The position numbers and the translations under genes are program-made. From positions 1 through 35,735 of the forward strand of contig NZ_FOTF01000029.1 in NCBI RefSeq assembly GCF_900114485.1: 35,735 nt of DNA, in the 5' to 3' direction. Numbering within the stretch: position 1 is the first letter of the stretch; every line of letters starts with the position of its first letter. Positions 7,764 through 32,707 of this stretch are shown here, piece by piece. The notes beneath the pieces are model-generated. The model made no database searches, had not been told where the DNA came from, and saw only the letters and a list, made by a program, of their open reading frames with translations. Source of the stretch: Loktanella salsilacus. GTDB taxonomy: Bacteria > Pseudomonadota > Alphaproteobacteria > Rhodobacterales > Rhodobacteraceae.

Positions 7764-7769
7764 GCACTC

Positions 7770-8147: not shown

Positions 8148-8151
8148 TCGC

Positions 8152-8167: not shown

Positions 8168-8227
8168 TGACTTCAGATATCGGTCCCTTGAAAATGAGGG
8201 TCCGCGATAGGCAGAGCAGGATATTTC

Positions 8228-9916: not shown

Positions 9917-9945
9917 CCCGAAACTCTCACAAAAGGAAAAGACAG

Positions 9946-11304: not shown

Positions 11305-11421
11305 CAAGCCTTTAGGCCCCGTCAGATAATCATTCCGAAATTTAGGCCAAATCCGGCCTGAACAGGCGGTCCCCCCGGCCGCCGCACATCCCCCACGACA
11401 TGACAACAAACTGGAAAAACT

Positions 11422-12996: not shown

Positions 12997-13533
12997 ATGC
13001 AGTTATTCAATCGTCGCCAAGCGTCGCTGGCTATCCTCACAACTCTGGCTGCTTGTGGTAAAGGCAACTCCGTAAAAACCGCGCCAGCGCCGGTATTTAA
13101 GCGGTATGCTGGACCAGCAGTCACTCAAGTGGCTGTTTATAAAGACAAGCGACGCATGCATCTGCTCAGTGGCGACATGATACTGAAGTCCTACGATTTA
13201 GGTCTAGGAAATGCACCCGTTGGACAGAAGAAATTCGAAGGCGATGGGAAAACCCCGGAAGGATTGTACTATATTGATCGCTTCAATCCCCGTAGTAGGT
13301 ATCACCTCTCGATCGGTATTTCCTATCCCAATCAAAGGGATCGGGCATATGCCGCCCAATTTGGCCGATCTGCAGGCGGTGAAATCATGTTTCATGGGCG
13401 AGGGCCCGGAGGTAATGTAGTAGCACCGAACAAATGGGATTGGACAGCAGGATGTATCGCCTTAACGGATACAGAAATAGAGGATGTATACGCAATGCTC
13501 AGAATTGGCGTGCCCGTCTGGATACACGCATAG
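12997..13533 (+). CDS. L,D-transpeptidase (YkuD domain), lipoprotein
   Basis: This 178-residue protein has a short signal with lipobox LAAC (C20). The rest is one YkuD domain: VAVYKDKRRMHLLSGDMILK, GDGKTPEGLYYID, and the catalytic set MFHGRG (H133) and WTAGCIAL (C153). YkuD enzymes form 3-3 cross-links in peptidoglycan or attach proteins to it, using a cysteine nucleophile; copper is known to inhibit such enzymes in E. coli. It is read from its own unit after the copper operon terminator. It is the most divergent of the four L,D-transpeptidases in the window, since the other three have the longer NPLGARA..Y..HG...S(N/S/D)GC form. Confidence 0.9.
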   Translation: MQLFNRRQASLAILTTLAACGKGNSVKTAPAPVFKRYAGPAVTQVAVYKDKRRMHLLSGDMILKSYDLGLGNAPVGQKKFEGDGKTPEGLYYIDRFNPRSRYHLSIGISYPNQRDRAYAAQFGRSAGGEIMFHGRGPGGNVVAPNKWDWTAGCIALTDTEIEDVYAMLRIGVPVWIHA

Positions 13534-17745: not shown

Positions 17746-18375
17746 CTACAGATCGATCGCATCTTGATCCAGCATACGAATGCAACCTGACGACACTGCT
17801 TTGCCAAGTTCGCGTGGCGACGCATTGCCGTGCACCCGGTAGAGGGTATCCACGCCGTTATCGAACAAATAGAGAGCACGTGCGCCCAAGGGATTACCAA
17901 CTCCGCCGGCCATTCCACCGTTTGCGACGGAATACGGTTCCAACTCTGGCTGGCGTTCGATCATAGTTGCTGGCACCTTCCAACGTGGCCATTCACGTCG
18001 GAACTGCAGACGAGCTGTGCCCTGCCACTCGAAGCCGGCCGCGCCGACGCTGACTCCGTAGCGCCATGCGCTCTCAGGTGTTTCGACAAAATGCAGAATG
18101 GCGGAATCGGGGTCGATGATGATCGTGCCGGGCGCATGGTCCGGCCAAGGATTGGCAATTTGTGTACGCCAATATTCTGGCGCCAATGATCCTTCCGGAA
18201 TTGCCGGCACGGGAAAAGGCTCATCGTTGATCGCACCGTAGAAGGCGGGTAGCGGTGGATAGGCAGGAGGCGCGGCAGCGGCGCGAGTTACGATCTCTGG
18301 AGTCGGTACTGTCTTAGTACAAGCTGTGAGACCTGCAGCTGCACTGCAGCCTATGAATATGCGTCGCGTTATCAT
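17746..18375 (-). CDS. L,D-transpeptidase (YkuD), C-terminus cut by a TAG codon
   Basis: This 209-residue protein begins MITRRIFIGCSAAAGLTACT, with both a twin-arginine and a lipobox (LTAC, C19). The YkuD domain shows NPLGARALYLFDNG, YRVHGN (H182) and AVSSGCIRM (C198), so the catalytic His and Cys are intact. It stops after DQDAIDL. Reading on past the TAG in the same frame gives ERAIHGAAVLVLPSMKPSG and a stop at 17671; relatives continue DLY-x-RV..G..V.VLP, so the TAG replaces an expected Tyr. Either the last strand is lost in a recent nonsense mutation or the base is a sequencing error. The ATG at 18375 is chosen over 18531 because the signal follows it. Confidence 0.85.
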   Translation of the reverse strand: MITRRIFIGCSAAAGLTACTKTVPTPEIVTRAAAAPPAYPPLPAFYGAINDEPFPVPAIPEGSLAPEYWRTQIANPWPDHAPGTIIIDPDSAILHFVETPESAWRYGVSVGAAGFEWQGTARLQFRREWPRWKVPATMIERQPELEPYSVANGGMAGGVGNPLGARALYLFDNGVDTLYRVHGNASPRELGKAVSSGCIRMLDQDAIDL

Positions 18376-18570
18376 GGGAGTCCTTTGACGTTTTTGTGGA
18401 GAGGCATGCCCCGGCGTTTCATCGCACTGGGCGCAGCGGTACCGGAGGTCGTGAAGGTTGCAGGCTGAAACGCCGCCAGCTTGTGCGATCGGCGCACAAA
18501 TAAGACCGCTCTCCACAAACAAAAGCGGCATGAGTACTGCTGAGCGTGACGATGATGGCCCTCGTAATAA

Positions 18571-19941
18571 TCATTTTGTATTCACGTCAGGACTGACGGG
18601 AATGCGCAGCGCAACTATCTCCCCGCCGTCAGGCCGGGCCTGAAACTCCACTGTACCGGTGAGCCGCTGGACCGCAGCCGCAACGATGGACAACCCGAGG
18701 CCGCTGCCGCCATTCGGCGCGTTCTTGCCCCGATAAAAGCGGTCCGCGATATGCGGCAAGTCAGCGTCAGGGATGCCACGGCCATGATCGCTCACGGCAA
18801 TGACGACATGCCGATTATTCTGAACGACTTCGATCTGCACCGATTCGCCCTTGGGGGACGCCATGATGGCATTCTCTACGATGTTGCGGACGGCGACTGT
18901 CAGGAGGTCTGAATTGACCTTGGCGAGATACGTAAGCCGATCTTCGATTTGCAGTGTCACCTGCTGGGCGGCCGCAACGCGCGCCAGGTCTGACACGACT
19001 GATTTGACCACAAGCAACACGTCGGCATTGCAATCGTCCGGGGGATCGTCCCGATCCAAGGTTGCCAGGGCCAGTAACTGCCTGACCATCCTGTCAGCCC
19101 GTGTCATGCCGTCCTGAATGCGGTTCAGGGCCTGCTGCCGCGTCTGCGCATCAGGTGCCATTGCGGCGACCTGAGCCTGTATCTTGATTCCCGCCAACGG
19201 CGTCTTGAGCTCATGTGCTGCGAAGGACGTGAAACTTTTTTCCCGGTCCCGCATTACATTGACGCGTGAAAAAAGTCCGTTGAGCGCATGGCCCATCGGT
19301 TTGATTTCCCGCGGGAGAATTGCAGCATCGACAGGACTCAGATCCTCGGCGGGGCGCAGCGCCAAGGCCCTGGCCATCCGGTCTATGGGGGCTAGTCCCC
19401 GCTGCAGGCTAAGCAAAATCAGCACCGCCATGATCGGCAGCATCAGCAAGGCCGGTAGAACCAGCCCCTTTGCGACATCATCGACAAGCCGGTCACGGAC
19501 GATATAGCTGTCGCCGACCATGATACGGACGCCCAAATCCTCGTTAACGACGGAATAGACACGCCATGCCTCTCCATCGATAACGTTTTGACTGAATCCT
19601 GTGTCTTGATTGGTCAACTGCTCCGCCGGTGAGCTGCCCGAGCGTCCGACCAAAGTCCCGTCAAGAGACCAGATTTGACAGGATAGTCGATGTGAATAAC
19701 CCGCTTGCATGAACTCGCCAGTTGAACCTGAGTTTGTTGCAAGTGTCGCGGCGCGGCTCACGTCGATCCGTTGATCCGACAGGAGGGATGAAACCATCTG
19801 ACCGGCCTCTGCCAGACGGGCATCAAGAACCCGCTCGACCTTGTCGCGCGTTGATTGTTGGACCCAGACGAAGGCCGAAAGCCAGACAAGGGTGGTCGTT
19901 GTCAAAAGGATGACGAACAGACGCGTCCGGATAGATGTCAT
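18571..19941 (-). CDS. Sensor histidine kinase (QseC/PmrB-like)
   Basis: This 456-residue inner-membrane kinase has helix 1 at about 8-27, a periplasmic sensor of about 130 residues with two cysteine-free faces apart from C88, helix 2 at about 158-178, a HAMP-like segment, then FAAHELKTPLAG with phosphorylated His243. ATP-binding boxes are NIVENAIMAS (N), DHGRGIPDAD (G1) and GGSGLGLSI (G2). The architecture matches QseC/PmrB-type kinases, which respond to metals, acid or envelope signals; the signal here is unknown. Its start overlaps the response-regulator stop by four bases. Its genomic setting suggests copper, thiol-redox or envelope stress, which is inference. Confidence 0.92.
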   Translation of the reverse strand: MTSIRTRLFVILLTTTTLVWLSAFVWVQQSTRDKVERVLDARLAEAGQMVSSLLSDQRIDVSRAATLATNSGSTGEFMQAGYSHRLSCQIWSLDGTLVGRSGSSPAEQLTNQDTGFSQNVIDGEAWRVYSVVNEDLGVRIMVGDSYIVRDRLVDDVAKGLVLPALLMLPIMAVLILLSLQRGLAPIDRMARALALRPAEDLSPVDAAILPREIKPMGHALNGLFSRVNVMRDREKSFTSFAAHELKTPLAGIKIQAQVAAMAPDAQTRQQALNRIQDGMTRADRMVRQLLALATLDRDDPPDDCNADVLLVVKSVVSDLARVAAAQQVTLQIEDRLTYLAKVNSDLLTVAVRNIVENAIMASPKGESVQIEVVQNNRHVVIAVSDHGRGIPDADLPHIADRFYRGKNAPNGGSGLGLSIVAAAVQRLTGTVEFQARPDGGEIVALRIPVSPDVNTK

Positions 19942-20603
19942 GGTGCCCCTCCTGACAGTCTGTAGCCTGCGCCCCGGACCGTCTGGATATATTCGGCACC
20001 CAGCTTCGAGCGAAGCTTGTGAATATGCACTTCGACAGCGTTGCTTTCGATGCCGTCCTGCCAGCCATAAAGCCGCTCCTCGAGTACGGATTTTGACAAG
20101 ATTGCGCCGGGTCGTTCCATCAACGCACGCAAAATTGCAAATTCGCGGGGCGAAAATGCGACGCTTTTTTCATTCTGACGGCCGTTCATTTTTGCGGGGT
20201 CTACCTCCAGCCCGTTCCAGCGCAGACTGGAACTGGAACGACCTTCTGCGCGGCGCATGATTGCTCTCAGACGCGCAGCAACTTCATCAAGGTCGAATGG
20301 CTTTCCAAGGTAGTCATCGGCACCCAGATCAAGACCCGCAATACGGTCCTCCACCTGATCCAACGCCGTCAGCAGCAGAACCGGCGTTGCATCTTTATGC
20401 GATCTCATGCCCGCAAGAATATCCAGCCCGGTTCCATCAGGCAGCATGATGTCCAGCACGACCGCGACAAAGCCGCCGTGTGCCAAGGCGTCTTTCGCGT
20501 CGGCAACGTTGGTCACGACGTCTGGTGTAAAACCTGACAGGCGCAAGCCGACCGACAGGCCGTCAGCCAGTGACGGGTCATCCTCGACAATCAGGACACG
20601 CAT
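19938..20603 (-). CDS. OmpR-family response regulator (QseB/PmrA-like)
   Basis: This 221-residue protein has a receiver domain (D8, D9, phosphorylated D51 in VVLDIMLPDG, T79, K101 in GKPF) and a C-terminal winged helix (SPREFAILRALMERPG, SNAVEVHIHKLRSKLG, TVRGAGYRL). It is cognate to the kinase, with ATGA overlap at 19938-19941. The start is the ATG at 20603 before RVLIVEDD; the frame's earlier start at 20633 lacks family support. A tandem CTTAAG box lies 42 bases upstream of its start, and boxes of the same form precede other nearby units, so it probably regulates itself and them. PmrA of enterobacteria recognises a similar direct repeat. Confidence 0.93.
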   Translation of the reverse strand: MRVLIVEDDPSLADGLSVGLRLSGFTPDVVTNVADAKDALAHGGFVAVVLDIMLPDGTGLDILAGMRSHKDATPVLLLTALDQVEDRIAGLDLGADDYLGKPFDLDEVAARLRAIMRRAEGRSSSSLRWNGLEVDPAKMNGRQNEKSVAFSPREFAILRALMERPGAILSKSVLEERLYGWQDGIESNAVEVHIHKLRSKLGAEYIQTVRGAGYRLSGGAP

Positions 20604-20645
20604 GGCTGGAGATCCTTTTTCATTTTGCGGCAATGCAGCGCTAAC

Positions 20646-20662
20646 CTTAAGCCTGACTTAAG
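20646..20662 (-). promoter_or_regulatory. Tandem CTTAAG box between response regulator and dsbD
   Basis: On the minus strand CTTAAG-tcagg-CTTAAG forms two perfect hexamers with a 5-base gap (11-base period), resembling the PmrA/BasR box. The near edge is 42 bases from the response-regulator ATG and 22 bases from the dsbD ATG on the other strand, so it could control both. Confidence 0.7.
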
Positions 20663-20684
20663 GGGATAAGACGACCAGTGCCGC

Positions 20685-22517
20685 ATGACATATACAAAAC
20701 AGTTCCCGAACATCGCCGCGCACCTGCTTCGTTTAACTGCCTTAATTGTTACATTGATGCTGACCGTTGTTCCGTTAGCCCAAGCTCAGGGGTTTTTCGA
20801 AGGCCGGTCGGATCCTTTGCCCGTCGATGAAGCCTTCGAGTTGAACGTCGTCGATCATGAAGATGGCACGCGTGTCCTGAACTGGACCATCGCTGACGGC
20901 TATTACATGTATCGCGATTACCTTTCGGCGCAGACTGAAACCGGGGTTGAGGTTTCTATGATGACACCTCCGGGGATCCGTAAAGACGATCCGAACTTTG
21001 GATCCGTCGAGATCTACCATGATAGCCTGCAGGCAGATCTGGCAGCAACTTCCGGTTTCGTCACTGTGACCTATCAGGGCTGTCAGGACGAAGGCATCTG
21101 CTATCCCCCTGTGTCCCGTACGCTGGCACCCTTAGGCGCAGGTACGACAGTTTCAGCGGTCAGCAGTGCCTCTGAAGCGCCAGATTCACGAACCGAACTC
21201 AAATCACCTGGCCTGACTTTGTCTCAAGACAAAGGTGTGATTGAGGGATTACAGGCGCGCGGCGGTATCACGTTCGTACTTGCTGGCTTTTTCTTCTTCG
21301 GAATGTTGCTGGCATTCACACCGTGTATGTTCCCAATGTTCCCAATATTGGCAGGCTTGCTTGCAGGTCGGAGTAACATGACAGCGCGGCGGGGATTTAC
21401 CATATCCGGGGTCTACGTATTGGCCATGGCGCTCGCATTTGGTCTGCTGGGCGTTGCCGCAGCTTGGTCAGGGCAAAACCTTCAGGTCGCTTTGCAGTCG
21501 CCGGTCGCCATCTATGCGGCGGCTGCCGCATTCGTGGTCATTGCGCTGTCGATGTTCGGTCTGTTTGAAATTAAAATGCCTGCGGCTTGGACACAACGTC
21601 TGTCGCGCGTTGGAACGTCTTCGCGGGGCACATTGGGGGGGGCGGCGACGCTCGGGTTTACATCTGCCCTGATCATGGGCCCCTGCGTGACTGCGCCCTT
21701 GGCGGGGGCCCTGCTTTACATCGCGGGCACCGGCGATGTCACCTTAGGTGCCGCAGCGCTATTTTTCTTGGGTTTGGGACAAGGTGTACCTCTTTTACTG
21801 GTTGGCACACTTGGCTCGCGAGTCCTGCCCAAGGCGGGGGCATGGATGACCGGCGTAAAATATGCGTTCGGTTTCATCTTCCTGGGGATGGCGCTTTGGC
21901 TGGTCGGCCGCATCGCACCCGGTCCCGAAGTCCTTTTGCTGTGGTCAGTTCTACTGATTGGGGCCGGAGTCTTTGCCGGTGCAATGGATATGCTGTCCGG
22001 TGACGCCGGTCCGTTGCGCCGTGTGGTCAAGACCGGCGCAGTTTTCTCTGTCATGGCTGGGGGCGTGATGCTGGTGGGTGCTGCATCCGGCGCCAGCGAC
22101 CCATCGCATCCCTTCTCGACATTTCAAGGCGCATCCGGTTCAGACGTAACGCAGACTGATGGCGTGGCCTTTGTCGAAGTGACCTCGAAGGACGCGCTTG
22201 AGGCAGCGCTGGCTGACGGCCAACAGCAACCGACTTTGATTTACGTCACCGCCGACTGGTGCGTGACATGCCGCGTGATCGAACGAGAAGTCTGGGATGA
22301 CCAGGCCGTCAAGGACGCGCTTATTAATGCCAATGTCATCGCGGCGGATGTTTCCACTTTTGACGCAGGCAGCCAGGCGATGCTGGATATGCTGGGCGCA
22401 GTCGGGCCGCCGACAATGGTATTTCTGGATCGTGATCAGACGGAGAAGCCAAATACACGTATCGTCGGCGAGACGACTGCGGAGCACTTTCTTAAATCGT
22501 TCGGTACAGTGCGTTGA
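20685..22517 (+). CDS. dsbD: DsbD, thiol:disulfide interchange protein
   Basis: This 610-residue three-domain protein has a signal peptide to about residue 34, then the periplasmic alpha domain with cysteines C133 and C139 (YQGCQDEGICYPP), the eight-helix beta domain with C214 (FTPCMFPMFPI) and C334 (GPCVTAPLAGALLY), and a C-terminal thioredoxin-like gamma domain with C526 and C529 (ADWCVTCRVIE). It moves electrons from cytoplasmic thioredoxin across the membrane to periplasmic thiol proteins. The next gene starts inside its stop region, so the Lgt-like/TlpA fusion is a likely electron acceptor. A PmrA-like box precedes it by 22 bases. Confidence 0.95.
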   Translation: MTYTKQFPNIAAHLLRLTALIVTLMLTVVPLAQAQGFFEGRSDPLPVDEAFELNVVDHEDGTRVLNWTIADGYYMYRDYLSAQTETGVEVSMMTPPGIRKDDPNFGSVEIYHDSLQADLAATSGFVTVTYQGCQDEGICYPPVSRTLAPLGAGTTVSAVSSASEAPDSRTELKSPGLTLSQDKGVIEGLQARGGITFVLAGFFFFGMLLAFTPCMFPMFPILAGLLAGRSNMTARRGFTISGVYVLAMALAFGLLGVAAAWSGQNLQVALQSPVAIYAAAAAFVVIALSMFGLFEIKMPAAWTQRLSRVGTSSRGTLGGAATLGFTSALIMGPCVTAPLAGALLYIAGTGDVTLGAAALFFLGLGQGVPLLLVGTLGSRVLPKAGAWMTGVKYAFGFIFLGMALWLVGRIAPGPEVLLLWSVLLIGAGVFAGAMDMLSGDAGPLRRVVKTGAVFSVMAGGVMLVGAASGASDPSHPFSTFQGASGSDVTQTDGVAFVEVTSKDALEAALADGQQQPTLIYVTADWCVTCRVIEREVWDDQAVKDALINANVIAADVSTFDAGSQAMLDMLGAVGPPTMVFLDRDQTEKPNTRIVGETTAEHFLKSFGTVR

Positions 22518-23323
22518 ACGGGCTTGAGATTGGACCTTTGGTCGTTTCTAACGATCAGATCATCGCAATCGTGGCACTGGCAACAGTGCTCCTGGTGTCC
22601 GAGATTTTTGCGTGGCGTCGCCCTCTGGAGGCTGGAGCAATCAGGCGCTGGACTTTGGTTGCTGCCCTGACGTGGATCGTTGCAGCGCGCGTGGGGTTTG
22701 TCATGCGCCATCTTGATCTCTTCGCACAGCAACCTCTGAGCGCTGCTGCGATCGGGCAAGGAGGCTTCGATCGGCTATCGGCAACGATCGCTGTGGCTTG
22801 GGTCATGTTCTTTGCAATGTTGCGTCGACCGTCAATCATTAAGCCAATCGCGGTTTCGGTTCTGCTTGGCACCATCGCCTTTCAGGTCGCCGGATTTGCG
22901 CTGCCCAATGAAACCAGAGGCCGTATCCCCAACCTCACATTCGCCGATATGTCTGGCAGCGTAATGGAGTTGGCGCAGACAGATGGAAAGCCGATGGTTC
23001 TGAATCTTTGGGCAACCTGGTGTCCGCCTTGCCGCCGAGAAATGCCGATGTTGATGCAGGCTGCTGCGAATGACAAAGAGGTAAATTTTGTGTTTGCCAA
23101 CCAAGGAGAGATTGAGGAAGTGATCCAAGGTTATCTGAGGTACAGTCGGTTGGCCTTCGATGGTGTGGTGTTGGATGAAGAGTCGTCGCTCATGGCAAAA
23201 TTCGGCGTGCTGGGGCTACCCAGTACATTGTTTTTTGCGGCTGATGGTGAACTACGTGCTGTTCATACCGGAGAGATCACCCGGCCCGCGTTGCTGACAG
23301 AGATTGAAAATTTGAAGCGTTGA
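22514..23323 (+). CDS. Lgt-like/TlpA fusion thioredoxin, copy 1
   Basis: This 269-residue protein starts at TTG (22514), overlapping the dsbD stop (TTGA), so it is translationally coupled. Residues 1-130 form about four membrane helices with a pattern like the first part of prolipoprotein diacylglyceryl transferase (VAARVGFVMRHLDLF..QPLSAAAIGQGGF), but without the Lgt catalytic His and the later Arg-rich region, so the transferase activity should be absent. Residues 135-269 are a TlpA/ResA-like thioredoxin with WCPPC (C170, C173) and cis-Pro in GLPSTLFF. It should be a membrane-anchored periplasmic thiol reductase fed by DsbD. Its paralogue lies at 25431-26225. Confidence 0.88.
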   Translation: MNGLEIGPLVVSNDQIIAIVALATVLLVSEIFAWRRPLEAGAIRRWTLVAALTWIVAARVGFVMRHLDLFAQQPLSAAAIGQGGFDRLSATIAVAWVMFFAMLRRPSIIKPIAVSVLLGTIAFQVAGFALPNETRGRIPNLTFADMSGSVMELAQTDGKPMVLNLWATWCPPCRREMPMLMQAAANDKEVNFVFANQGEIEEVIQGYLRYSRLAFDGVVLDEESSLMAKFGVLGLPSTLFFAADGELRAVHTGEITRPALLTEIENLKR

Positions 23324-23522
23324 ATTTAGCGACAAAATTATCGGTGACGATCGCGATCAGAACTTGTTACACCCTGATGTGCATTCACCTGAATGAGACA
23401 AGGAAACCGGGATGACGCGTCTCGAACGCGTGTGTCACCCCTCAAACCGTGGGGGTTAACCGTCTCGCGCAACAGCCTCCCACCGTGCGTGTCGCGACGG
23501 CACAAGGTTTCCGTGGATCACT

Positions 23523-23558
23523 GTGCTTTGCGTCAGCAAATTTGAACCCGCAAAGCAC
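23523..23558. terminator. Stem-loop between convergent genes
   Basis: GTGCTTTGCG (23523-23532) pairs perfectly with CGCAAAGCAC (23549-23558) across a 16-base loop. It lies between the stops of the convergent TlpA and L,D-transpeptidase genes. No T run follows, so the terminator call is tentative. Further inverted repeats fill 23400-23470. Confidence 0.5.
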
Positions 23559-23584
23559 GGTGAAGCGGCGATGTCCTGCCAAGT

Positions 23585-24175
23585 TCAACCGTTTCCAGGG
23601 ATAAAGCCGTCAGAGCGTGTCTTCGGATACAGGAAGACGGATGCATCCAACTGCACCCGATCATAAAGGTCGACGATGTGGTCGTTTATCAGACCGGCGC
23701 AACCATTTGATACGGCCCGTCCGATCGTGGCTGGATCATCGGTGCCGTGAATTCGCAAAAATGTGTCGCCACGCCCTTCTTGAAAGAGGTAAATCGCCCG
23801 CGCGCCCAGCGGATTGCCGGGTCCGCCAGGGATCCCGTCCTCGGCGTACTGCGCGTACTTTTCTGGCTCGCGCTTAATCATGCCGGGTGTCGGCACCCAG
23901 GACGGCCATTCCTTCTTTGCGCCGACATAGAACGTACCGGCCTCATAAAGCTGGTCACGACCAACCCGAATTGGATAAACGCGTGCCTTCCCGCCGGGCA
24001 ATATCAAATAAAGCCTGAAATTATCCGGGGAGACAAGAATCTGACCTTCAGGATAATCGTAGCTCAAATAGACGTCGTGCGGTGTCATAAGAGAGGGGGT
24101 CGTCTCTGCTAATGACGGCGCGGCGAGGCCGATCAATCCAGCGGTGGCGGTGCCTAGAAAGTTCCGACGGTGCAT
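23585..24175 (-). CDS. L,D-transpeptidase (YkuD), Tat-type signal
   Basis: This 196-residue protein has a signal MHRRNFLGTATAGLIGLAAP with a twin-arginine, cleaved near SLAE. The YkuD domain includes DNFRLYLILPGGKARVYPIR, NPLGARAIYLFQEG, RIHGTDD (H143) and AVSNGCAGL (C159), so it should be an active periplasmic enzyme making 3-3 peptidoglycan cross-links or anchoring proteins. Most relatives have Ile/Val then Arg/Met after the catalytic Cys, while this one has Ala-Gly-Leu. It is 12 bases downstream of the next L,D-transpeptidase gene and is co-transcribed with it. The two are paralogues with different substrate-side sequences. Confidence 0.93.
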   Translation of the reverse strand: MHRRNFLGTATAGLIGLAAPSLAETTPSLMTPHDVYLSYDYPEGQILVSPDNFRLYLILPGGKARVYPIRVGRDQLYEAGTFYVGAKKEWPSWVPTPGMIKREPEKYAQYAEDGIPGGPGNPLGARAIYLFQEGRGDTFLRIHGTDDPATIGRAVSNGCAGLINDHIVDLYDRVQLDASVFLYPKTRSDGFIPGNG

Positions 24176-24187
24176 AAGCGATCCCTC

Positions 24188-24739
24188 TTAAATGATACGG
24201 ACTTGCGTTCCGACCTGGCACAGGGAGAACAGTTCGGCGATTTTTTCGTTATAGAGGCCAATGCAACCGTCCGAAGACGGGCGGCCGATCTTACGGGTGT
24301 CGTGGGTTCCGTGGATCAGGTAGGCGGGCCAGCCCAGATACATCGCATGGGTCCCCAGCGGGTTATCGGGTCCCGGTGGCATGTATGTCCAACCGAACCG
24401 CTCTTTCTGCGATGCGGTCGGGGTCCAGTCAGGTCCGAGGCGCTTACGCACGATACTGGTGTACCCGCGCTTGGTCAGCTCTTCGCTGATCGGCACAGAT
24501 GTCGGATAGACGCGGTAGTCGCTGGCGTCCGCATCCCAGTAATGCAAGGCGCGCGACTGCGTATCTGCGACGATGGCACCGGGGCCAAGATCGTCAAAAT
24601 GGTCCTGCCATTGATGGGTTCGGAAACTGGCAACGTTTCGGGTGGTCGGGGCTAGTTGCGCCACGGCGGGGGACGCCAGTGCGGTCAGCGCAGCGATGCC
24701 GCCCGCCAGCAGCGTGCGTCGATCGGTATGGTTAGTCAT
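24188..24739 (-). CDS. L,D-transpeptidase (YkuD), first gene of a tandem pair
   Basis: This 183-residue protein has a signal with a twin-arginine (TDRRTLLAGGIAALTALASP, cleavage near AVAQ). The YkuD domain shows QSRALHYWDADASDYRVYPT, GPDNPLGTHAMYLGW, LIHGTHD (H143) and PSSDGCIGL (C159). Cys174 near the C-terminus (LCQVG) is an additional cysteine. A tandem CTTAAG box sits 42 bases upstream of its ATG, exactly the spacing seen at the response-regulator gene, so the pair of transpeptidases is probably under that regulator. The DsbA gene stop is 62 bases upstream of this start. Confidence 0.93.
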   Translation of the reverse strand: MTNHTDRRTLLAGGIAALTALASPAVAQLAPTTRNVASFRTHQWQDHFDDLGPGAIVADTQSRALHYWDADASDYRVYPTSVPISEELTKRGYTSIVRKRLGPDWTPTASQKERFGWTYMPPGPDNPLGTHAMYLGWPAYLIHGTHDTRKIGRPSSDGCIGLYNEKIAELFSLCQVGTQVRII

Positions 24740-24781
24740 GTCTGCCTCATGTTTTTGTTGGGATGCCTATCGGTGACCAAC

Positions 24782-24798
24782 CTTAAGTCAGCCTGAAG
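24782..24798 (-). promoter_or_regulatory. Tandem CTTAAG-type box before the L,D-transpeptidase pair
   Basis: On the minus strand CTTCAG-gctga-CTTAAG: two hexamers at 11-base period with one mismatch in the distal half. Its near edge is 42 bases from the ATG at 24739, the same distance as the box before the response regulator. Confidence 0.65.
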
Positions 24799-24801
24799 GT
24801 G

Positions 24802-25407
24802 TCAGCCCTGTCTGGCGGTCGAGATTGCATCTTTCAGCGCTGTCTGATCCATCACACCGCCGTAGAACTTCGTTCCGATCACAAAGGCAGGTGTCCCGCC
24901 AAAGCCGAAGGCGGCAGCCTGCTGCTGGTTGCGCTGCAACAGGCCATCCCATTTAGCTCGTGACTGTTTAAAGGAGACCATGGCTTCTTTCGGATCGACG
25001 ACGGTGGCAACGGCCGCGTCGACAATGTCTTCGTCCAGCCGGCCGGTGGTCTGCATCAAGGCGTGGTTGACCTCCGGGTAGTGTCCCATATCCACCGAGC
25101 CCAAGCCCAGTTGAGCGGCGTAGATCGAGGCGGCGCTCAGGATCGGCCAGTCCTTCAGGACCAGTCGCACGTTCCCGTCCTCAGCAACCACGCTCATCAG
25201 ATCAGGGTGGCCCGCCTTGCAGTAGGGACATTGGTAATCGAAGAACTCCGCGATCGTCACATCGCCATCCGGGTTGCCAAGAACGGGGGCGTCAGGATCG
25301 AAATAGACGGCCTCCGGCGTCAGTTGATTGTCCTGTGCACGGGCAAGGCGCGGCAGAATAAGGGTTGCGGTGGCGGTGGCCAAAATGGCGCGTCGTGTCA
25401 GTTGCAT
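24802..25407 (-). CDS. DsbA-family thiol:disulfide oxidoreductase
   Basis: This 201-residue protein has a signal MQLTRRAILATATATLILPR (twin-arginine-like), cleaved near ARAQ. The thioredoxin fold with inserted helices carries the active site FFDYQCPYCKAGH (C60, C63) and the cis-Pro loop GGTPAFVIG. CPYC/CPHC is the typical redox pair of DsbA and DsbG-like enzymes in Alphaproteobacteria. It would oxidise or isomerise disulfides in the periplasm, so it complements the DsbD/TlpA reductive branch. AGGA precedes the ATG at 25407; the frame's start at 25434 would overlap the upstream TlpA gene. It follows that gene by 23 bases in one operon. Confidence 0.92.
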   Translation of the reverse strand: MQLTRRAILATATATLILPRLARAQDNQLTPEAVYFDPDAPVLGNPDGDVTIAEFFDYQCPYCKAGHPDLMSVVAEDGNVRLVLKDWPILSAASIYAAQLGLGSVDMGHYPEVNHALMQTTGRLDEDIVDAAVATVVDPKEAMVSFKQSRAKWDGLLQRNQQQAAAFGFGGTPAFVIGTKFYGGVMDQTALKDAISTARQG

Positions 25408-25430
25408 GGTTTGGTCCTTTTGAATGGATG

Positions 25431-26225
25431 TCATCGGGTGCTTTGAATTCCCGCGGTCAGGGCCGCACGAGACACTTCGCCCGTCACGGCCTCAGTCAGA
25501 TTACCGTCTGCGTCGAAAAACAGGGTGGTGGGCAGACCTAAGGCTTCGAAGTGGCGCATCAGATCCATGTTGGGATCCAGCAGGACGCCGTCGCCCTTCA
25601 AGTTCTGCACCTCCAGAAAGCGGCGCACGTCGGTCAGCGTCTCGCCTTGGTTGGCAAAGACGATGCGCGCATCCGGCGTGTCTTTGGCGACCTGCATCAT
25701 CATTGGCATCTCGCGGCGGCAGGGCGGACACCATGTCGCCCACAGGTTTACGACCAACGGACGTGCGTCATCGCCAGGGAGTAGAGTTTGTGCTCTGTCG
25801 ATGTTCGCAAAACTCATGTGCGGCAGATTGCTGGCACCGCCGGCGGGTAAGAGATGGGGCGTGATGCCAGCGGCCAGCGCGGCGACGCCGGTGGCCATCA
25901 TTAACGGCAGCGCAGTGCGCCGGTCGCGCACCACAGTAAATATTATCACAACGCCGACACCGGCCAGTCCGGCTGCTGGCAGGAATCCACCTTGCCAGAC
26001 GGCCGAAATATCCAGTGGATGCGCGGCGTAAACATCCCAGTGGCTGATGACAAATCCGGCGCGGGCAGCCACAAGCCAACCCACGATGACAGCAGTCCCT
26101 TGCAGATTTCGCGTCCTGTCCAGCCGGTTCCAAAGCCACAGGCAGGTCAGAAAGCTCAGGGCTGCAATAAAGGCTATGACCCGGTCTGCCCCAAAGACGA
26201 AGGGCCCGAGCTGCAGCCCCGTCAT
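25431..26225 (-). CDS. Lgt-like/TlpA fusion thioredoxin, copy 2
   Basis: This 264-residue protein is a paralogue of the one at 22514-23323. Residues 1-125 are membrane helices resembling the N-terminal part of Lgt, here very clearly (VAARAGFVISHWDVYAAHPL then DISAVWQGGF), but the Lgt His of the HGG motif is replaced (LPAAG) and the later catalytic region is missing. Residues 135-264 are a TlpA-like thioredoxin with WCPPC (C166, C169) and GLPTTLFF. It should be a membrane-tethered periplasmic reductase or thiol carrier. It is the first gene of an operon with DsbA, behind a tandem box 82 bases upstream. Confidence 0.88.
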   Translation of the reverse strand: MTGLQLGPFVFGADRVIAFIAALSFLTCLWLWNRLDRTRNLQGTAVIVGWLVAARAGFVISHWDVYAAHPLDISAVWQGGFLPAAGLAGVGVVIIFTVVRDRRTALPLMMATGVAALAAGITPHLLPAGGASNLPHMSFANIDRAQTLLPGDDARPLVVNLWATWCPPCRREMPMMMQVAKDTPDARIVFANQGETLTDVRRFLEVQNLKGDGVLLDPNMDLMRHFEALGLPTTLFFDADGNLTEAVTGEVSRAALTAGIQSTR

Positions 26226-26307
26226 CGTCGCCCCCCCGATATGGGCGGCGGATTGGCGGTGAAACTATATCGGTCGGTAAACATGGGGACCGCTGTGCGG
26301 AGAGACC

Positions 26308-26324
26308 CTTAAGCGAACCTTAAA
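26308..26324 (-). promoter_or_regulatory. Tandem CTTAAG-type box before the TlpA-DsbA operon
   Basis: On the minus strand TTTAAG-gttcg-CTTAAG, 11-base period, near edge 82 bases from the ATG at 26225. It fits the same pattern as the box at the response-regulator gene. Confidence 0.65.
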
Positions 26325-26410
26325 CCGCGAGAACCAGTGGGGCAGGCCGAGGCTCGGTGTGTCCACCAGCAATCACTGGCAAAATGGGACCAAGCCGTCA
26401 GCCTTTTGGC

Positions 26411-27364
26411 TCATTCGAACTCCATCTGCTCAAAGACTCTTCCCGCGTTCTTGGTCGCGAGCTCTTCAAAAGTATCAAGGTGTGCGTAGGGCGTTTGATC
26501 GATGTAATAGGCCTCGGCCAGCCCTCCGCCTTCATCCAGAAGTGTTTCGATCTGTCTGCGCAAGTAGACAAGGTAATCGTGGGTATAAAGGCGCACTTGA
26601 TCGACGTTTGTTGGATGACCGTGACCGGGAATGACGTAAGTCGCGCCAAGCGGCTCGAAGGCTGTCTCCCATGTCTCGACCCAGCCTTTGGTGTCAGTGT
26701 CGGGAAATATCGGCAGCATGCGTTCGTGGAATGCCATATCGCCGGAAATCACCAGTTTCTGGTCGGGCAGCCAGATGACGATGTCACCGGGGCTGTGGGC
26801 CGGACCCAGATAGCGTGCCTCGATTGTGAAATCGCCAAAGGGGACAGTGTAGACATCGTCGAAGGTTTCGGTGGGGGCTTGGACGCGGGTGTCATCAAAG
26901 CGGTCCGCTAAAAGCTGCGCGCCTGCGTCGAATGATGCGGCACCCTCGGCCGCGAAGGTCTCGGCTGCAGCAGTATGGGCCAACACCGGCACGCCCAGTT
27001 CAACCCAGTAACCATTGCCGAGCATGGCGTGGCCCTGTCCGTTCTCGTCTATCACCAATTTTACCGGTTGTTCGGTTATGGCTTTAATCTCTGTATGCAG
27101 CGCCTTTGCAAGGCCCCAGCTGGCACCGGCGTTTATCACAACGACGCCGTCGCCGGTCACGATGAAGCTGAGGTTGTTGTTGTGGCCCGCGTTCTCGTAG
27201 GTGGGCGGAGCGGTCGCGCCGGTGGCTGACCAGACACCCGGAATGAATTCCACCGGTTTGGCGTAAAGGAGTGAGTCCGGGTATTGGTCAGCAATGTTCT
27301 CGTTGGCAAAGGCACTCGTCGCGACAAGAAACAGCAGCGTTGCGAAGGGTTGTGTCATCTGCAT
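26411..27364 (-). CDS. Secreted metallo-beta-lactamase-fold protein with altered metal motif
   Basis: This 317-residue exported protein has a signal peptide (to about residue 20, ATSAFA). The MBL fold is clear: FIPGVWSATG, NNNLSFIVTGDGVVVINAG, GPAHSPGDIVIWLPDQKLVI with H190, SGD with D209 and IPGHGHP with H248. The usual HxHxDH motif, however, reads DENGQGH at residues 106-112, so two His and the Asp of the first metal site are missing while the spacing to the GN is kept. It may bind one metal or none, or be a relative of SoxH/quinoprotein-linked MBL proteins with a different site. It follows the multicopper oxidase gene by 42 bases in one operon. Confidence 0.85.
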   Translation of the reverse strand: MQMTQPFATLLFLVATSAFANENIADQYPDSLLYAKPVEFIPGVWSATGATAPPTYENAGHNNNLSFIVTGDGVVVINAGASWGLAKALHTEIKAITEQPVKLVIDENGQGHAMLGNGYWVELGVPVLAHTAAAETFAAEGAASFDAGAQLLADRFDDTRVQAPTETFDDVYTVPFGDFTIEARYLGPAHSPGDIVIWLPDQKLVISGDMAFHERMLPIFPDTDTKGWVETWETAFEPLGATYVIPGHGHPTNVDQVRLYTHDYLVYLRRQIETLLDEGGGLAEAYYIDQTPYAHLDTFEELATKNAGRVFEQMEFE

Positions 27365-27406
27365 AGGTGAGCCTTTCCAGCGGTTTGTAGTATCAGTTCG
27401 ATCCGG

Positions 27407-28897
27407 TCACGACACGGTAAATTGCCCCATCATGCCAGCGTCTTCATGTTCGAGGATGTGGCAGTGATACATAAACGGCGTCTCTGCCGTCGCACACTTA
27501 TCAAACCGTACGAGAATTTCCGTCGGGCCGTCCACAAGTACCACGTCCTTGAGCCCGACCTGCTGCGGATCGACGGCGCGACCACCTTGCGAAATGACCT
27601 GAAAAGAGGTGCCGTGCACATGGAACGGATGCGCCTGCATATCCGCATCGATGCGCCACAACTCGGTCTCGTTCAGTTGCATGGCCTGGTCGATGCGGTT
27701 CATGTCGTAGGAGTCACCGTTGATGCCCATGGCTTGCCCGTCGCGGCCGATCAGGGTGTTGAACATACTGCCCATCATGCCGCCGCCGTGCAGATTGAGC
27801 CTGAAGGAGCGCGTGCGCACGGGTTCACCCATATCACGGATGTCGCTGGGCAACGTCTTGGGCAAGGTGGCCGGCGCTGTGACCGCCGCGTCGCCGACAT
27901 CGAAGGACATGACCTCGAACGTACTGTCGGAATTGCCGCCGCCGTTCATCATTCCGCCGCCGCCCATCATGCTGCCGCCACCCATCATGCCACCACTGCC
28001 GACGTCGCGGGATACCAGACGGGCAGGGGCGCGGTCCGCAAAATCCACAACGATCTCGGCCCGTTCGGCAGGGGCCAATTGCAGTGTCGTGCGCCCCATG
28101 GGTGCGGGCAGCAGACCACCGTCGGTGCCGACCTGATGGAACGTACGACCGTCGGCAAAGCTGAAGTCATAGATGCGGGCATTGGACGCATTTAGCACCC
28201 GCAGGCGCACCAGCCCTCCTGGCACCGTCAGCTTGGGCCTGATCGCGCCGTTGACCAAAATCTCTGAACCTCGGAAACCCTGCATGACCCCCATCATTCC
28301 AAGGTCATAACTCATGCGGCCGGATCGGTCGAAGTTGCGATCTTGGACGATCAAGGGAATGTCATTGAAGCCATAGTCATCGGGCAGCCCGGCATCGACA
28401 TCCGGGTCATCGACGATGATCATACCTGCCAATCCGCGATAGACCTGATCCGCAGTCTGTCCGTGGACGTGGCTGTGATACCAGAGGGTCGCGGCGGGGT
28501 GATCGACGGGCAGTTCCGGTGACCACGTCTGGCCGGGGGCAAAAGCAAGCTGCGGTCCACCATCTAAATGACCTGGCACATGCATGCCATGCCAATGGGC
28601 CGTGATGGGGTCATCGGTGCGGTTGACCACGTCAATGTTGGCCGTCCGTCCGCGCTGAAACCGCAGCAACGGGCCAAGGTAGTCCTGCTCATAGCCTAGT
28701 GTGGGGGAGGGGGCACCGTCCATAAATGCGCGTGTGCCGTTCCGCGCGGTCAGCGTATGACCGGCGTCCGGCCCAATTTCCATGACCGCTGGGATCGGGA
28801 GTGGCGCCCCCGGCTCTGCCGCAAAGGCGCGCCGCGTCATAAGGGCAGGGGCGGCCAGGGCCGTCGCAGCGCAGGTCAGGAACTGACGTCGTTTCAT
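27407..28897 (-). CDS. Multicopper oxidase, CueO-like, Tat-exported
   Basis: This 496-residue protein has a Tat signal (MKRRQFLTCAATALAAPALM). The copper ligands are HWHG (101-104), WYHSHVHG (139-146), HPFHVHG (423-429) and HCHILEHEDAGM (478-489), giving the trinuclear site and a type-1 site with Met axial ligand. A Met/Gly-rich loop (303-317, GMMGGGSMMGGGGMM) is the position where CueO has its Met-rich Cu(I)-binding insert. It should oxidise Cu(I), and perhaps phenolic or siderophore substrates, in the periplasm. It is only distantly similar to the other oxidase at 9946-11304. It is the first gene of an operon with the MBL-fold protein; a possible box lies 58 bases upstream. Confidence 0.95.
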   Translation of the reverse strand: MKRRQFLTCAATALAAPALMTRRAFAAEPGAPLPIPAVMEIGPDAGHTLTARNGTRAFMDGAPSPTLGYEQDYLGPLLRFQRGRTANIDVVNRTDDPITAHWHGMHVPGHLDGGPQLAFAPGQTWSPELPVDHPAATLWYHSHVHGQTADQVYRGLAGMIIVDDPDVDAGLPDDYGFNDIPLIVQDRNFDRSGRMSYDLGMMGVMQGFRGSEILVNGAIRPKLTVPGGLVRLRVLNASNARIYDFSFADGRTFHQVGTDGGLLPAPMGRTTLQLAPAERAEIVVDFADRAPARLVSRDVGSGGMMGGGSMMGGGGMMNGGGNSDSTFEVMSFDVGDAAVTAPATLPKTLPSDIRDMGEPVRTRSFRLNLHGGGMMGSMFNTLIGRDGQAMGINGDSYDMNRIDQAMQLNETELWRIDADMQAHPFHVHGTSFQVISQGGRAVDPQQVGLKDVVLVDGPTEILVRFDKCATAETPFMYHCHILEHEDAGMMGQFTVS

Positions 28898-28955
28898 ATC
28901 GAACCTCTGGTTTGTATCGGATCTTAAGATTGTCGAAATTTGGCGACTACGGCGG

Positions 28956-28972
28956 TTTAAGACGATCTTGAT
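28956..28972 (-). promoter_or_regulatory. Degenerate tandem box before the multicopper oxidase
   Basis: On the minus strand ATCAAG-atcgt-CTTAAA, 11-base period, near edge 58 bases from the ATG at 28897. A separate CTTAAG lies at 28923-28928, exactly 33 bases (three periods) away. This is the weakest of the four boxes. Confidence 0.45.
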
Positions 28973-29191: not shown

Positions 29192-30157
29192 ATGGAGCAC
29201 TTCAAGACATTTGTAGCAGCAAGCAGCATTGCCTTGCTGACAAGCAGCGGCGCATCTGCGCAGGACCAAGACGAGGAGAACGGCAACAAGGACTACCGGA
29301 CCTTCACAGCGGGCGATATTGCCTATGGCCAGATTGGGGACAGCTATACGGCTGACCTCGTGATGTATTTGGCCGGAAACCAGTTCATGGTGATTGAAGA
29401 CCTGATCAGCGATTTTCAAGGCAAGAACCCTGATATCGCGACAATCTATGTCGAAACGATCCCGCCCGGGCAAATCATCAACGGACAGCTTTTGCAGCAG
29501 GGCCAGATCAACGGCGAGGATACTGCGCAGAACCCGGATCTTTACGCCTCAGTCAATTTGGGACACCTGACGACGCTGGCCACTGAGAATCGCATGACCG
29601 ACTACAAGGTCTACACGCACAACAAGCTCGAATTGATGGTGGCCAAGGGCAATCCCAAAGAGATCAAGGGCGCAGAGGATCTGGGCCGTGATGATCTGGT
29701 GCAGTCCCATCCCAACCCCCAGACCGAGGGGATAATGAGATTCTACGGGCTGGCGATGCTGAAAGACCTTGGTCTCTACGACAAGGTGACGGGCGGGCAG
29801 GACTGCAAGGGCTGCTGGGCCGTCGCCGACAAGGTCTGGTTCACCGATCGCCATCACCGTGAGACGCCGCAGCGCATCGAGGACGGACTTGCCGATGTTG
29901 GAATCGTTTGGACGACCGAAGTGAAAGAGGCCGTCGATGCCGGTCGTGATATCGAAGGCGTGGCGATCGCCGCGCCATTTAACAAGCAGGACGAGGTGAG
30001 CTATGCGATCGGTCAGATCACGGACGGCCGCAATCCTGAAAATGCCGCCACGTTCCTCGAATATCTGGCCAGCGATGCGGCACAGGACATCTATGTCTCC
30101 TACGGCTTTGTGCCTGCCAGTGCCGAAGAACTGACGCTGAAGCCGATTCCGAAGTGA
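29192..30157 (+). CDS. Periplasmic substrate-binding protein (ModA-like), orphan
   Basis: This 321-residue protein has a signal peptide ending near SGASAQ. It has the type-2 periplasmic binding fold pattern: LISDFQGKNPDIATIYVETI, GADLGRDDLV-like segment around KELKGAEDLG, AKGNPKEI, ADVGIVWTTEVKEA and the C-terminal NAATFLEYLASDAAQDIYVS, as in molybdate/tungstate-type binding proteins. A DCKGCWAV segment adds two cysteines (CxxC), not usual for ModA. The ATG at 29192 has GAGGAGG-type sequence upstream; the frame extends to 29123 without support. No ABC permease or ATPase gene is nearby, so it may serve a distant transporter or act as a sensor. The ligand is unknown. Confidence 0.8.
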   Translation: MEHFKTFVAASSIALLTSSGASAQDQDEENGNKDYRTFTAGDIAYGQIGDSYTADLVMYLAGNQFMVIEDLISDFQGKNPDIATIYVETIPPGQIINGQLLQQGQINGEDTAQNPDLYASVNLGHLTTLATENRMTDYKVYTHNKLELMVAKGNPKEIKGAEDLGRDDLVQSHPNPQTEGIMRFYGLAMLKDLGLYDKVTGGQDCKGCWAVADKVWFTDRHHRETPQRIEDGLADVGIVWTTEVKEAVDAGRDIEGVAIAAPFNKQDEVSYAIGQITDGRNPENAATFLEYLASDAAQDIYVSYGFVPASAEELTLKPIPK

Positions 30158-30162
30158 CGGAT

Positions 30163-30196
30163 TTGGCGCGGCATGTGTTCTTGCCGCGCCAATTTT
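30163..30196 (+). terminator. Rho-independent terminator
   Basis: TTGGCGCGGC (30163-30172) pairs perfectly with GCCGCGCCAA (30183-30192), followed by TTTT. It begins five bases after the stop at 30157, so the binding-protein gene ends its own transcript. Confidence 0.92.
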
Positions 30197-30344
30197 CCAA
30201 ATGCAGGCGTTCAGTTGGGCGCTGTCGCCGCTTCGTCGTTGAGAACACTTCAGTGTGATGAATCAGGAAAACCTCGGCCTACCTTGGAACACATATTGAT
30301 CTGTGAATGTTTACTTCCCACTTCTGAAATGAATAGGAAACCAA

Positions 30345-31106
30345 ATGGCCGGATCTACAATGCTCGCGGGTGCCGCGATGGCTACGATCTTTGCGGCGAC
30401 TGCTGCATGCGCAGATATCTCTCTTTTCGGGCCAGGCGGCCCGACACCTGCAATGAAAGAAGCTGCAACCGCATTTGAAGAGGCGACCGGGATTGCGGTG
30501 GCCGTGACGGGTGGACCGGCATCGGACTGGATGGACGACGCCAAAGCGAATGCCGATGCGATTTACAGCGGCTCCCAGAACATGATGGATGATTTCATCG
30601 CAAGCCACGGCAAAATCATTGACGACACTGTAGAGCCACTGTTCCTGCGTCCGTCTGCCATTCTGGTCCGCAAGGGAAACCCGAAAGAAATTGCGGGCAT
30701 TGCCGATCTGGTCGAACGGGATCTGGGGCTGATGGTCGTCGATGGTGCTGGTCAGGTCGGCATGTGGGAAGACGTGGTCGGTCGGTTGCGGGATGTCGCG
30801 GCCATGAAAAGCTTTCGCGCCAATATCAACATTCTGGCACCCAACAGCGGTGCGGCACGGGACATCTGGAACAGCGACGACAGCATCGACGCCTGGCTGA
30901 TTTGGAACCACTGGCAGATCGACAACCCCGACATCGCCGAACTCGTCGCGACCGAGCCGGAGTTAACCATCTATCGTGACACCTCGATCGCGCGGACTGA
31001 AAAAGGCGTAGACAATGACGAAGTCACCCAATTCATCGACTTCCTGAAAGGTGACCAAGGCTCGAAAATTTTCGCGGCACATGGTTGGCAGCGCACATTC
31101 GACTGA
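30345..31106 (+). CDS. Second ModA-like substrate-binding protein
   Basis: This 253-residue protein has a signal peptide (about residues 1-22, MAGSTMLAGAAMATIFAATA then ACA). The binding-fold core shows ISLFGPGGPTPAMKEAATAF, EEATGIAVAVTGGPASDW, LFLRPSAILVRKGNPKEI, a central NSGAARDIW and the C-terminal FIDFLKGDQGSKIFAAHGWQ. It is similar in layout to molybdate-type binding proteins and more distantly to the gene just upstream. A stop codon lies in frame just before the ATG, and AGGA precedes it, so 30345 is the start. It has no transporter partner here. The SoxB-like gene follows after about 58 bases, perhaps in the same unit, hinting at an oxyanion such as a sulfur compound. Confidence 0.8.
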   Translation: MAGSTMLAGAAMATIFAATAACADISLFGPGGPTPAMKEAATAFEEATGIAVAVTGGPASDWMDDAKANADAIYSGSQNMMDDFIASHGKIIDDTVEPLFLRPSAILVRKGNPKEIAGIADLVERDLGLMVVDGAGQVGMWEDVVGRLRDVAAMKSFRANINILAPNSGAARDIWNSDDSIDAWLIWNHWQIDNPDIAELVATEPELTIYRDTSIARTEKGVDNDEVTQFIDFLKGDQGSKIFAAHGWQRTFD

Positions 31107-31164
31107 CGCCCGATGCGCCGATGATAACCCGGCAGGCGCGCACTAACGCCTAAGGAGAATGATG

Positions 31165-32604: not shown

Positions 32605-32707
32605 GATTGACTCCTCATACTGGCATCACAGTCCGTCACGTCATAAAGTCTCAAGGTACTGTCCATCACAACATTACGCAGGGCCGTGCTCTTCAAGTCA
32701 AATTGAT

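Follow-up and report, generated by a model that had tools for sequence, protein, structure and literature searches.

A PmrA-like box shared by a two-component system, periplasmic thiol reductases, and L,D-transpeptidases in Loktanella salsilacus and its relatives

Why would one promoter element precede a two-component system, a set of thiol-redox proteins, and L,D-transpeptidases of the cell wall? The question is posed by a contig of Loktanella salsilacus (NZ_FOTF01000029.1, our contig C30), of which bases 1-35735 form the window analyzed here; the genome measures 4.13 Mb. Genes for a response regulator (19938..20603, minus strand) and its sensor histidine kinase (18571..19941, minus strand) diverge from a dsbD-tlpA pair (20685-23323, plus strand), and an L,D-transpeptidase pair and a tlpA-dsbA pair lie further along the minus strand. 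A first-pass annotation, made from the sequence alone, had reported that four transcription units in this region follow two hexamers separated by 5 bases and had predicted a local regulon for periplasmic redox, copper oxidation, and wall cross-linking. We confirm that observation in part, and its interpretation is partly supported: the core prediction is upheld and sharpened, but the copper oxidase as a member and the copper label are not. Our favored explanation, which we consider likely, is a regulon answering thiol stress in the envelope, through which L,D-transpeptidases are made along with the reductases that keep their catalytic cysteine active.

A box conserved together with its regulator

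Three boxes in the window carry this explanation. Box 1, a perfect CTTAAG-N5-CTTAAG (20646..20662), lies between the regulator and dsbD genes, is conserved in relatives, and is predicted to be an activator site for both. Box 2, CTTCAG-N5-CTTAAG (24782..24798, minus strand), precedes the L,D-transpeptidase pair, and box 3, TTTAAG-N5-CTTAAG (26308..26324, minus strand), precedes tlpA-dsbA; each has one mismatch. In each, two hexamers with a TTAA core follow one another at a 5-bp interval, the arrangement that defines a PmrA box. Scored with a matrix built from relatives, the window excluded (lowest training score, 21.5), box 1 reached 31.3 on the minus and 24.9 on the plus strand, box 2 reached 28.7, and box 3 reached 20.3, against a best score of 15.2 in 60 simulated windows. 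The equal spacing that had been noted for the first two boxes is real, with 42 nt to the ATG of both the regulator and L,D-transpeptidase 1. The three boxes do score towards minus-strand genes, as had also been noted, but since CTTAAG reads the same on both strands, that direction says little; box 1 stands between divergent genes. Box 1 had been assigned to the regulator only; it also faces dsbD, which had been overlooked.

The genes behind these boxes encode the following products. DsbD (20685..22517, plus strand) combines an nDsbD domain with transmembrane and thioredoxin domains and carries six cysteines arranged as three pairs; it scores 485 against a DsbD model cutoff of 330; its ATG falls at the predicted transcription start. 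A TlpA-like thioredoxin gene follows with a 4-nt overlap (22514..23323, plus strand). L,D-transpeptidase 1 (24188..24739, minus strand) has a catalytic Cys159 and a second cysteine at 174, and L,D-transpeptidase 2 (23585..24175, minus strand) has a single Cys159; both are YkuD-domain proteins with the catalytic cysteine in a GC motif. Behind box 3, another TlpA-like thioredoxin (25431..26225, minus strand) is encoded first, followed by a DsbA-family thiol oxidoreductase with a CPYC motif (24802..25434, minus strand).

Other candidate sites in the window were set aside. The fourth reported box, at 28956 upstream of a multicopper oxidase gene, has three mismatches and scores -13.7, far below the real boxes, and a neighboring CTTAAG at 28923 scores -8.2/-4.8. 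A 79% identical oxidase on a Pseudosulfitobacter plasmid lacks a box (best upstream score, -5.7). No ortholog of the oxidase was found at E 1e-60 in the 15 other regulator-bearing genomes. None of the copper genes in the window has a matrix-supported box. The site at 12583 (at most one mismatch; score, 3.2) is probably a chance match, and 12950 was rejected (-7.5). At three or fewer mismatches, the window holds nine matches against 4.9 expected, a number reached in 5 of 100 shuffles.

Genome-wide, four of the eight sites with at most one mismatch fall within this 35.7-kb contig (binomial, 3.8e-7), among them the probable chance match at 12583. Three of those outside it (C33:211427, C34:1341, and C59:18568) score 11.5 or less and were set aside. 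The remaining site, C41:2652 (L180 2652), has one mismatch and scores of 24.9 and 23.0, level with the real boxes, which makes it a possible extra target outside the window.

We then compared 295 genomes of the family, the L. salsilacus genome included. Matches to the regulator at 59-100% identity, found in 15 genomes, were taken as orthologs because the next matches stand at 50% and below. A perfect box occurs in 17 of the 295 genomes: 13 of the 15 with a regulator ortholog and 4 of the 280 without (Fisher, 1.5e-17). The association persists when the L. salsilacus genome is left out (12 of 14 regulator genomes; 2.3e-16), and a reversed control pattern shows none (3/15 regulator genomes versus 64/280 others). 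Boxes with at most two mismatches lie directly upstream of the regulator in 11 of the 15 genomes, and in another, G091, the box is upstream of a transpeptidase-regulator-kinase operon. Among 15 paralog loci (44-50% identity), one had a two-mismatch site within 200 nt. In G306, from another family of the same class and with a 56% identical regulator, a one-mismatch box stands between the regulator and tlpA-dsbA.

A box with at most two mismatches precedes all 11 dsbD orthologs examined outside plasmids (five perfect, four with one, and two with two mismatches). It is retained at 49-64% DsbD identity, and where gene orders differ, the box follows the targets. The box 2 target is also boxed in other regulator-bearing genomes: among 30 transpeptidase 1 loci, the box is present in 6/11 from genomes with the regulator versus 0/19 from genomes without it (p 8e-4). 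Perfect boxes in four genomes without a regulator ortholog (G241, G166, G201, and G213) have best scores of 10.9-16.0, below the lowest training score, with LysR-family genes immediately downstream of two of the sites; we read these boxes as probable chance matches or sites of other regulators. One genome (G262) has three CTTAAG half-sites with an 11-bp period (L172 10009-10036), giving two overlapping perfect boxes.

The same cassette, regulator-kinase // dsbD-tlpA-transpeptidase-dsbA, recurs on plasmids with losses and reordering. We read 14 plasmid regions, 13 picked from 25 of 57 regulator records and one (Ensifer) from dsbD records. Carriers include Pseudosulfitobacter, Limimaricola, Roseovarius, Paracoccus (two), Palleronia, Pseudorhizobium, Bradyrhizobium, Agrobacterium (two), Shinella, and Neorhizobium; in Rhodobacter CZR27 the regulator-kinase pair and the transpeptidase are retained. 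The Ensifer region carries a boxed dsbD-tlpA-dsbA but no regulator. All 13 regulator-bearing plasmid loci have a regulator box with at most two mismatches, 12 of them perfect and that of Roseovarius with two. The conservation in relatives that the first-pass annotation had proposed as a check is thus borne out both for these loci and for the 11 dsbD orthologs. With a matrix trained without the window and the plasmids, the top match is the regulator or dsbD box in 13/14 plasmid loci and the transpeptidase box in the other (L233). In Rhizobiales, dsbG is boxed in all three loci where it is annotated (zero, one, and one mismatch). The target set thus comprises the genes of the two-component system itself, dsbD-tlpA-dsbA, and the genes for L,D-transpeptidases, joined in Rhizobiales by dsbG. 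The regulator and the box are conserved together, often on plasmids, in marine and soil alphaproteobacteria.

Promoter geometry, DNA recognition, and the sensor

Alignment of promoters by their boxes revealed an A 12 nt downstream as the strongest column outside the box (32/36 in the first set). This A is present on 35/40 gene-facing sides versus 6/22 non-facing sides (p 2.8e-6; the tlpA side of G306, locus L216, is taken as facing). In the plasmid loci, which were not used to find the rule and share no 300-bp stretch at 95% with the first set, the counts are 32/37 facing versus 1/13 non-facing (p 5.8e-7). Sites with no clear facing first gene, doubling another box, or weak were left out of these counts (L031 2040, L168 15300, L172 272 and 10020, L175 11652, L176 9950, L223 8433, L226 4849, and L227 4863; window 12583, 12950, 28923, and 28956). 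Adding L172 10020 (A) and L031 2040 (C) gives 36/42, and adding L227 4863 (C; upstream of a transpeptidase split by an insertion sequence element) to the plasmid count gives 32/38. In the window, the conserved A stands at 20634 (minus strand) towards the regulator, where it is the predicted -11A of the -10 element, at 20674 (plus strand) towards dsbD, at 24770 (minus strand) towards the L,D-transpeptidase, and at 26296 (minus strand) towards tlpA.

Taking this A as -11 places the end of the box 10 bp upstream of the -10 hexamer, makes the -35 element overlap half-site 1, and predicts a transcription start at +23 from the box. The pbgP promoter, in which the -35 element overlaps half-site 1 of the PmrA box, offers a precedent (PMC4660055). 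The shared geometry would fit PmrA/PhoB-type (OmpR/PhoB class II) activation, and activation rather than repression is the expected mode. An in-frame dsbD ATG lies at +23 (eight cases) or +24 (three cases) in all 11 orthologs from the window, nine family genomes, and L031. All six Rhodobacterales plasmids have it at +23, which is the annotated start of the record in 5/6. Across Rhodobacterales, dsbD therefore starts 23-24 nt past the box in 17/17 cases; in Rhizobiales loci, an ATG at +23 or +24 occurs in 0/7. Because this ATG coincides with the predicted transcription start, the dsbD mRNA of Rhodobacterales is probably leaderless. For the regulator, the distance from box to start is 34-50 nt in 11 of 12 cases and 148 nt in the remaining one. 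The rule of box, A at +12, and predicted start at +23 can be used to find further members.

As the first-pass annotation had proposed, the PmrA-like box is accompanied by a regulator of the OmpR/PhoB family and the PmrA/QseB type, an assignment drawn from profile, Protein Data Bank (PDB), and residue comparisons. The regulator scores 220.5 with the NCBIfam PmrA model (equivalog cutoff, 330), 217.8 with QseB (345), and 106 bits with CpxR; PmrA and QseB are nonetheless its nearest families, with both scores below the equivalog cutoffs. Its nearest solved relatives are BasR/PmrA chains. Among the PmrA DNA-contact positions described in PMC4660055 and PMC3973317, N188, V192, H193, H195, R198, and R210 are conserved. 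His195, proposed as a specificity residue of PmrA (PMC3973317), is present in 15/15 orthologs, in G306, and in the 49% identical regulator of L114, and is Ser in 14/15 paralogs. The sole His195 paralog (G275) has a one-mismatch box (score, 28.1; A at +12) ~650 bp upstream. Together with the genomic co-occurrence, these residue patterns bear indirectly on the predicted binding of the boxes by the phosphorylated regulator.

The sensor domain of the kinase is a 2CSK_N domain. The best NCBIfam match of the kinase is QseC, at 255.7 of a cutoff of 475; with PmrB it scores 147.7 of 314. The kinase has cysteines only at 88, within the sensor motif LSCQIWSLDG, and at 304. Cys88 is present in 28/28 orthologs (the window plus 27 loci, leaving out L231, with a split kinase, and loci with partial kinases) versus 0/13 aligned paralog rows, drawn from 12 distinct genes (L156 is part of L223). 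The only PDB match of the sensor is a QseC fragment (2kse), which has Phe at the position aligned to Cys88. We infer that Cys88 may act as a thiol sensor. On the Roseovarius indicus plasmid (L228 7098-11015), both the dsbD and the kinase gene seem disrupted: the annotation splits each in two, and a stop lies within the sensor motif of the kinase.

A proposed thiol-stress response and its alternatives

DsbD passes electrons across the membrane to TlpA-, DsbA-, and DsbG-type carriers. Joint production of transpeptidases and reductases under a kinase with a sensor thiol is most simply explained as a response to thiol damage. Building on the box–regulator pairing, target set, promoter geometry, and conserved cysteine documented computationally above, we propose that a kinase with a periplasmic sensor and an invariant cysteine would phosphorylate the PmrA-type regulator. 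The regulator would bind CTTAAG-N5-CTTAAG head-to-tail, with the end of the box ~10 bp upstream of the -10 element, and would activate transcription in the PhoB/PmrA (class II) manner on one or both sides. It would induce its own genes, DsbD, and TlpA/DsbA-type carriers (and DsbG in Rhizobiales), and the carriers would supply the periplasm with reducing power. It would also induce L,D-transpeptidases, enzymes with a catalytic cysteine that is easily oxidized or bound by copper, so that vulnerable wall enzymes are replaced and repaired simultaneously. The presumed repair of the transpeptidase cysteine by the reductases has a parallel in Escherichia coli, where DsbG, kept reduced by DsbD, is described as protecting the single cysteine of L,D-transpeptidases from sulfenylation (PMC3526765); copper inhibits L,D-transpeptidases (PMC9302775).

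Free-thiol enzymes suffer from periplasmic cysteine damage, and the co-conservation seen here suggests that bacteria have a circuit for repairing vulnerable enzymes that rely on a single cysteine. A dedicated regulator, its DNA site, the reductant supply, and the vulnerable enzymes appear to make up one module, often on plasmids, which makes the sensing and repair of cysteine damage testable with point mutants and reporter fusions. We also put forward, more tentatively, that the kinase is a single-cysteine sensor of the same damage that inactivates the transpeptidases, that the DsbD/DsbA/DsbG chain resets the sensor as well as repairing the enzymes, and that this system has spread on plasmids through Rhodobacterales and Rhizobiales. 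If so, damage to cysteines in the periplasm would be handled by a closed feedback circuit. We recognized no description of this regulon in the open-licence literature searched.

Several observations count against the thiol-stress explanation or against parts of it. Five of the 15 regulator genomes (G051, G088, G138, G215, and G234) yielded no DsbD ortholog; in four of them (all but G138), a box is upstream of a transpeptidase, in G234 at 358 nt from the start. Three of the 15 (G138, G088, and G051) have no box upstream of the regulator: in G088 and G051 it precedes a distant transpeptidase, and in G138 a cbb3-type COX1 (CcoN-like) gene. That COX1 box is perfect and also occurs in G026 (L118 6332 and L167 15007). 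In the L. salsilacus genome itself, C41:2652 sits 33 nt upstream of a TraB/PrgY/gumN (TraB/GumN)-family gene, with T at +12 on the facing side, and the idea of thiols and transpeptidases accounts for neither this site nor the COX1 boxes. These COX1 and TraB/GumN boxes indicate that the regulon may be wider than the cassette, and C41:2652 suggests that it may not be strictly local. Its local thiol-redox and wall cross-linking parts are supported by conservation, regulator co-occurrence, and geometry. The check for random frequency was passed, with the perfect box tracking the regulator across the family. With at most two mismatches, however, the L. salsilacus genome has 45 sites versus 82 for the reversed control; with no enrichment at that level, weak matches alone carry no signal. 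Orthologous promoters are not fully independent, nor is the plasmid set, where L235 and L031 share 81% identity over 12 kb. A single conserved A underlies the -10 assignment: T is rare at -12 and occurs at -7 in 0/36 of the first set and 4/37 of the plasmid set, and the full consensus is not seen. Most alphaproteobacterial promoters lack the -7T (PMC8407463). Two PmrA DNA contacts are altered in the regulator (T187 to Ser and N196 to Lys), as are K153 (to Arg), R171 (to Lys), and E199 (to Ser). Finally, Cys88 could be structural.

Other signals may be weighed for the same genes. One is reactive sulfur species (sulfide, persulfide, sulfite, or thiosulfate), with the regulon supporting periplasmic sulfur chemistry as SoxV and SoxW do. 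Two plasmid regions encode Blh, BigR, YeeE/YedE, and TauE; another encodes YeeE/YedE, TauE, and a metallophosphatase; and single regions encode SulP, rhodanese, and YeeE; SulP and a sulfur transferase; or DsrE. The window itself contributes a SoxB-like protein (below the SoxB cutoff) and a Sulf_transp protein, along with a metallohydrolase related to SoxH (below cutoff). Yet no listed box with two or fewer mismatches stands beside sulfur genes in the plasmid regions, 7 of the 13 annotated regions have no such cluster, and to our knowledge transpeptidases are not part of known sulfur oxidation; we hold this reading to be somewhat unlikely. We judge it unlikely that the system is mainly a copper-resistance response resembling Scs, in which the kinase senses copper, and attack by the metal is the reason for inducing the thiol carriers and transpeptidases. 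The window encodes a heavy-metal P-type ATPase with two HMA domains and CopA-like oxidase, CopI-like, and CueO-like oxidase proteins (all three below NCBIfam cutoffs), P-type ATPase homologs (27-35% identity) occur near boxes or the regulator in G026, G138, and G205, and Scs proteins, which combine DsbD- and DsbA/DsbC-like parts, have been linked to copper tolerance (PMC8900818). The copper genes of the window, however, lack supported boxes; the multicopper oxidase, which the first-pass annotation had counted as a member, fails in both the window and the relative. Copper as the theme is also unproven in the plasmids: among the 13 annotated regions, sulfur-metabolism genes are near the cassette in six and a multicopper oxidase in two.

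A general PmrA/QseB envelope response involving cations, peptides, or lipid A, with the Dsb and transpeptidase genes as envelope cargo, seems to us improbable. It would agree with the nearest families of the regulator (PmrA and QseB in NCBIfam, BasR in the PDB), with membership of E. coli LdtD in the Cpx envelope stress regulon (PMC12729407), and with the boxes upstream of the cbb3-type oxidase and TraB/GumN genes, which hint at wider targets. But the targets that recur are thiol-related, the invariant cysteine of the sensor has no counterpart at the aligned place in the solved QseC, and no lipid A gene was seen beside a box in the examined loci, where no family-based search for such genes was made. 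A nonfunctional origin of the boxes, as AT-rich repeats arising by chance or through shared ancestry, is extremely improbable. Sites 28956 and 12583 are such cases, and the genome-wide count at two mismatches speaks for such an origin; for the three main boxes, this explanation is refuted by co-occurrence with the regulator, retention at low DsbD identity, movement with the targets across gene orders, and the gene-facing A.

The remainder of the window holds further genes of these kinds. A third L,D-transpeptidase (17746..18531, minus strand), downstream of the kinase, is at most a candidate member of the regulon. The open reading frame is given as listed, and its true start is probably internal; only 11 residues follow the catalytic cysteine, and the protein may be C-terminally shortened. 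Another YkuD protein at 12997-13533, with a weak LdtF/DpaA-type match, is encoded beside a metal island (3102-12141) that comprises the P-type ATPase with two HMA domains, an outer-membrane efflux protein, the CopA-like multicopper oxidase, and a CopI/CusF-like cupredoxin. On the other side, two SBP_bac_11 solute-binding proteins are encoded in 29192-33760 along with a TsuA/YeeE-like Sulf_transp protein and the SoxB-like metallophosphatase; on a Bradyrhizobium plasmid, a similar group of genes lies beside the cassette.

Comparison with known systems

PmrAB is a close precedent for the DNA site. The Salmonella PmrA/BasR box has a CTTAAG first half-site and an NTTAAT second half-site five bp apart (PMC3973317), and the same half-site and spacing are found here. 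Six contact residues are kept, and the predicted -35 element covers half-site 1 as at pbgP (PMC4660055). The system differs from PmrAB in that the regulator falls short of the equivalog cutoff, T187, N196, K153, R171, and E199 are changed, the recurrent targets are thiol reductases and transpeptidases, and the kinase has a QseC-like 2CSK_N sensor with a conserved cysteine. QseBC resembles the system in its sensor, given the best kinase match, the 2CSK_N domain, and the solved 2kse fragment, but both scores fall below the equivalog cutoffs and 2kse has Phe in place of Cys88.

The CpxR box differs from the box described here. Cpx resembles our system as an envelope two-component system that controls an L,D-transpeptidase, LdtD (PMC12729407), and departs from it in regulator branch (106 bits with CpxR, 220.5 with PmrA) and target set. 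Scs likewise pairs a DsbD-like hub with DsbA-like and TlpA-like partners (PMC8900818), and copper genes are nearby in the window. The hub here, however, matches the DsbD model, with no ScsB match among those listed, and transpeptidases and a dedicated two-component system are added. We know of no shared dedicated two-component regulator for the DsbD-DsbG and transpeptidase genes of E. coli. The protection of transpeptidases by DsbD and DsbG in that species (PMC3526765) shares with our system DsbD, DsbA/DsbG-type carriers, and cysteine transpeptidases, and dsbG is boxed in three Rhizobiales loci; what sets the alphaproteobacterial system apart is that its thiol and transpeptidase genes share one box.

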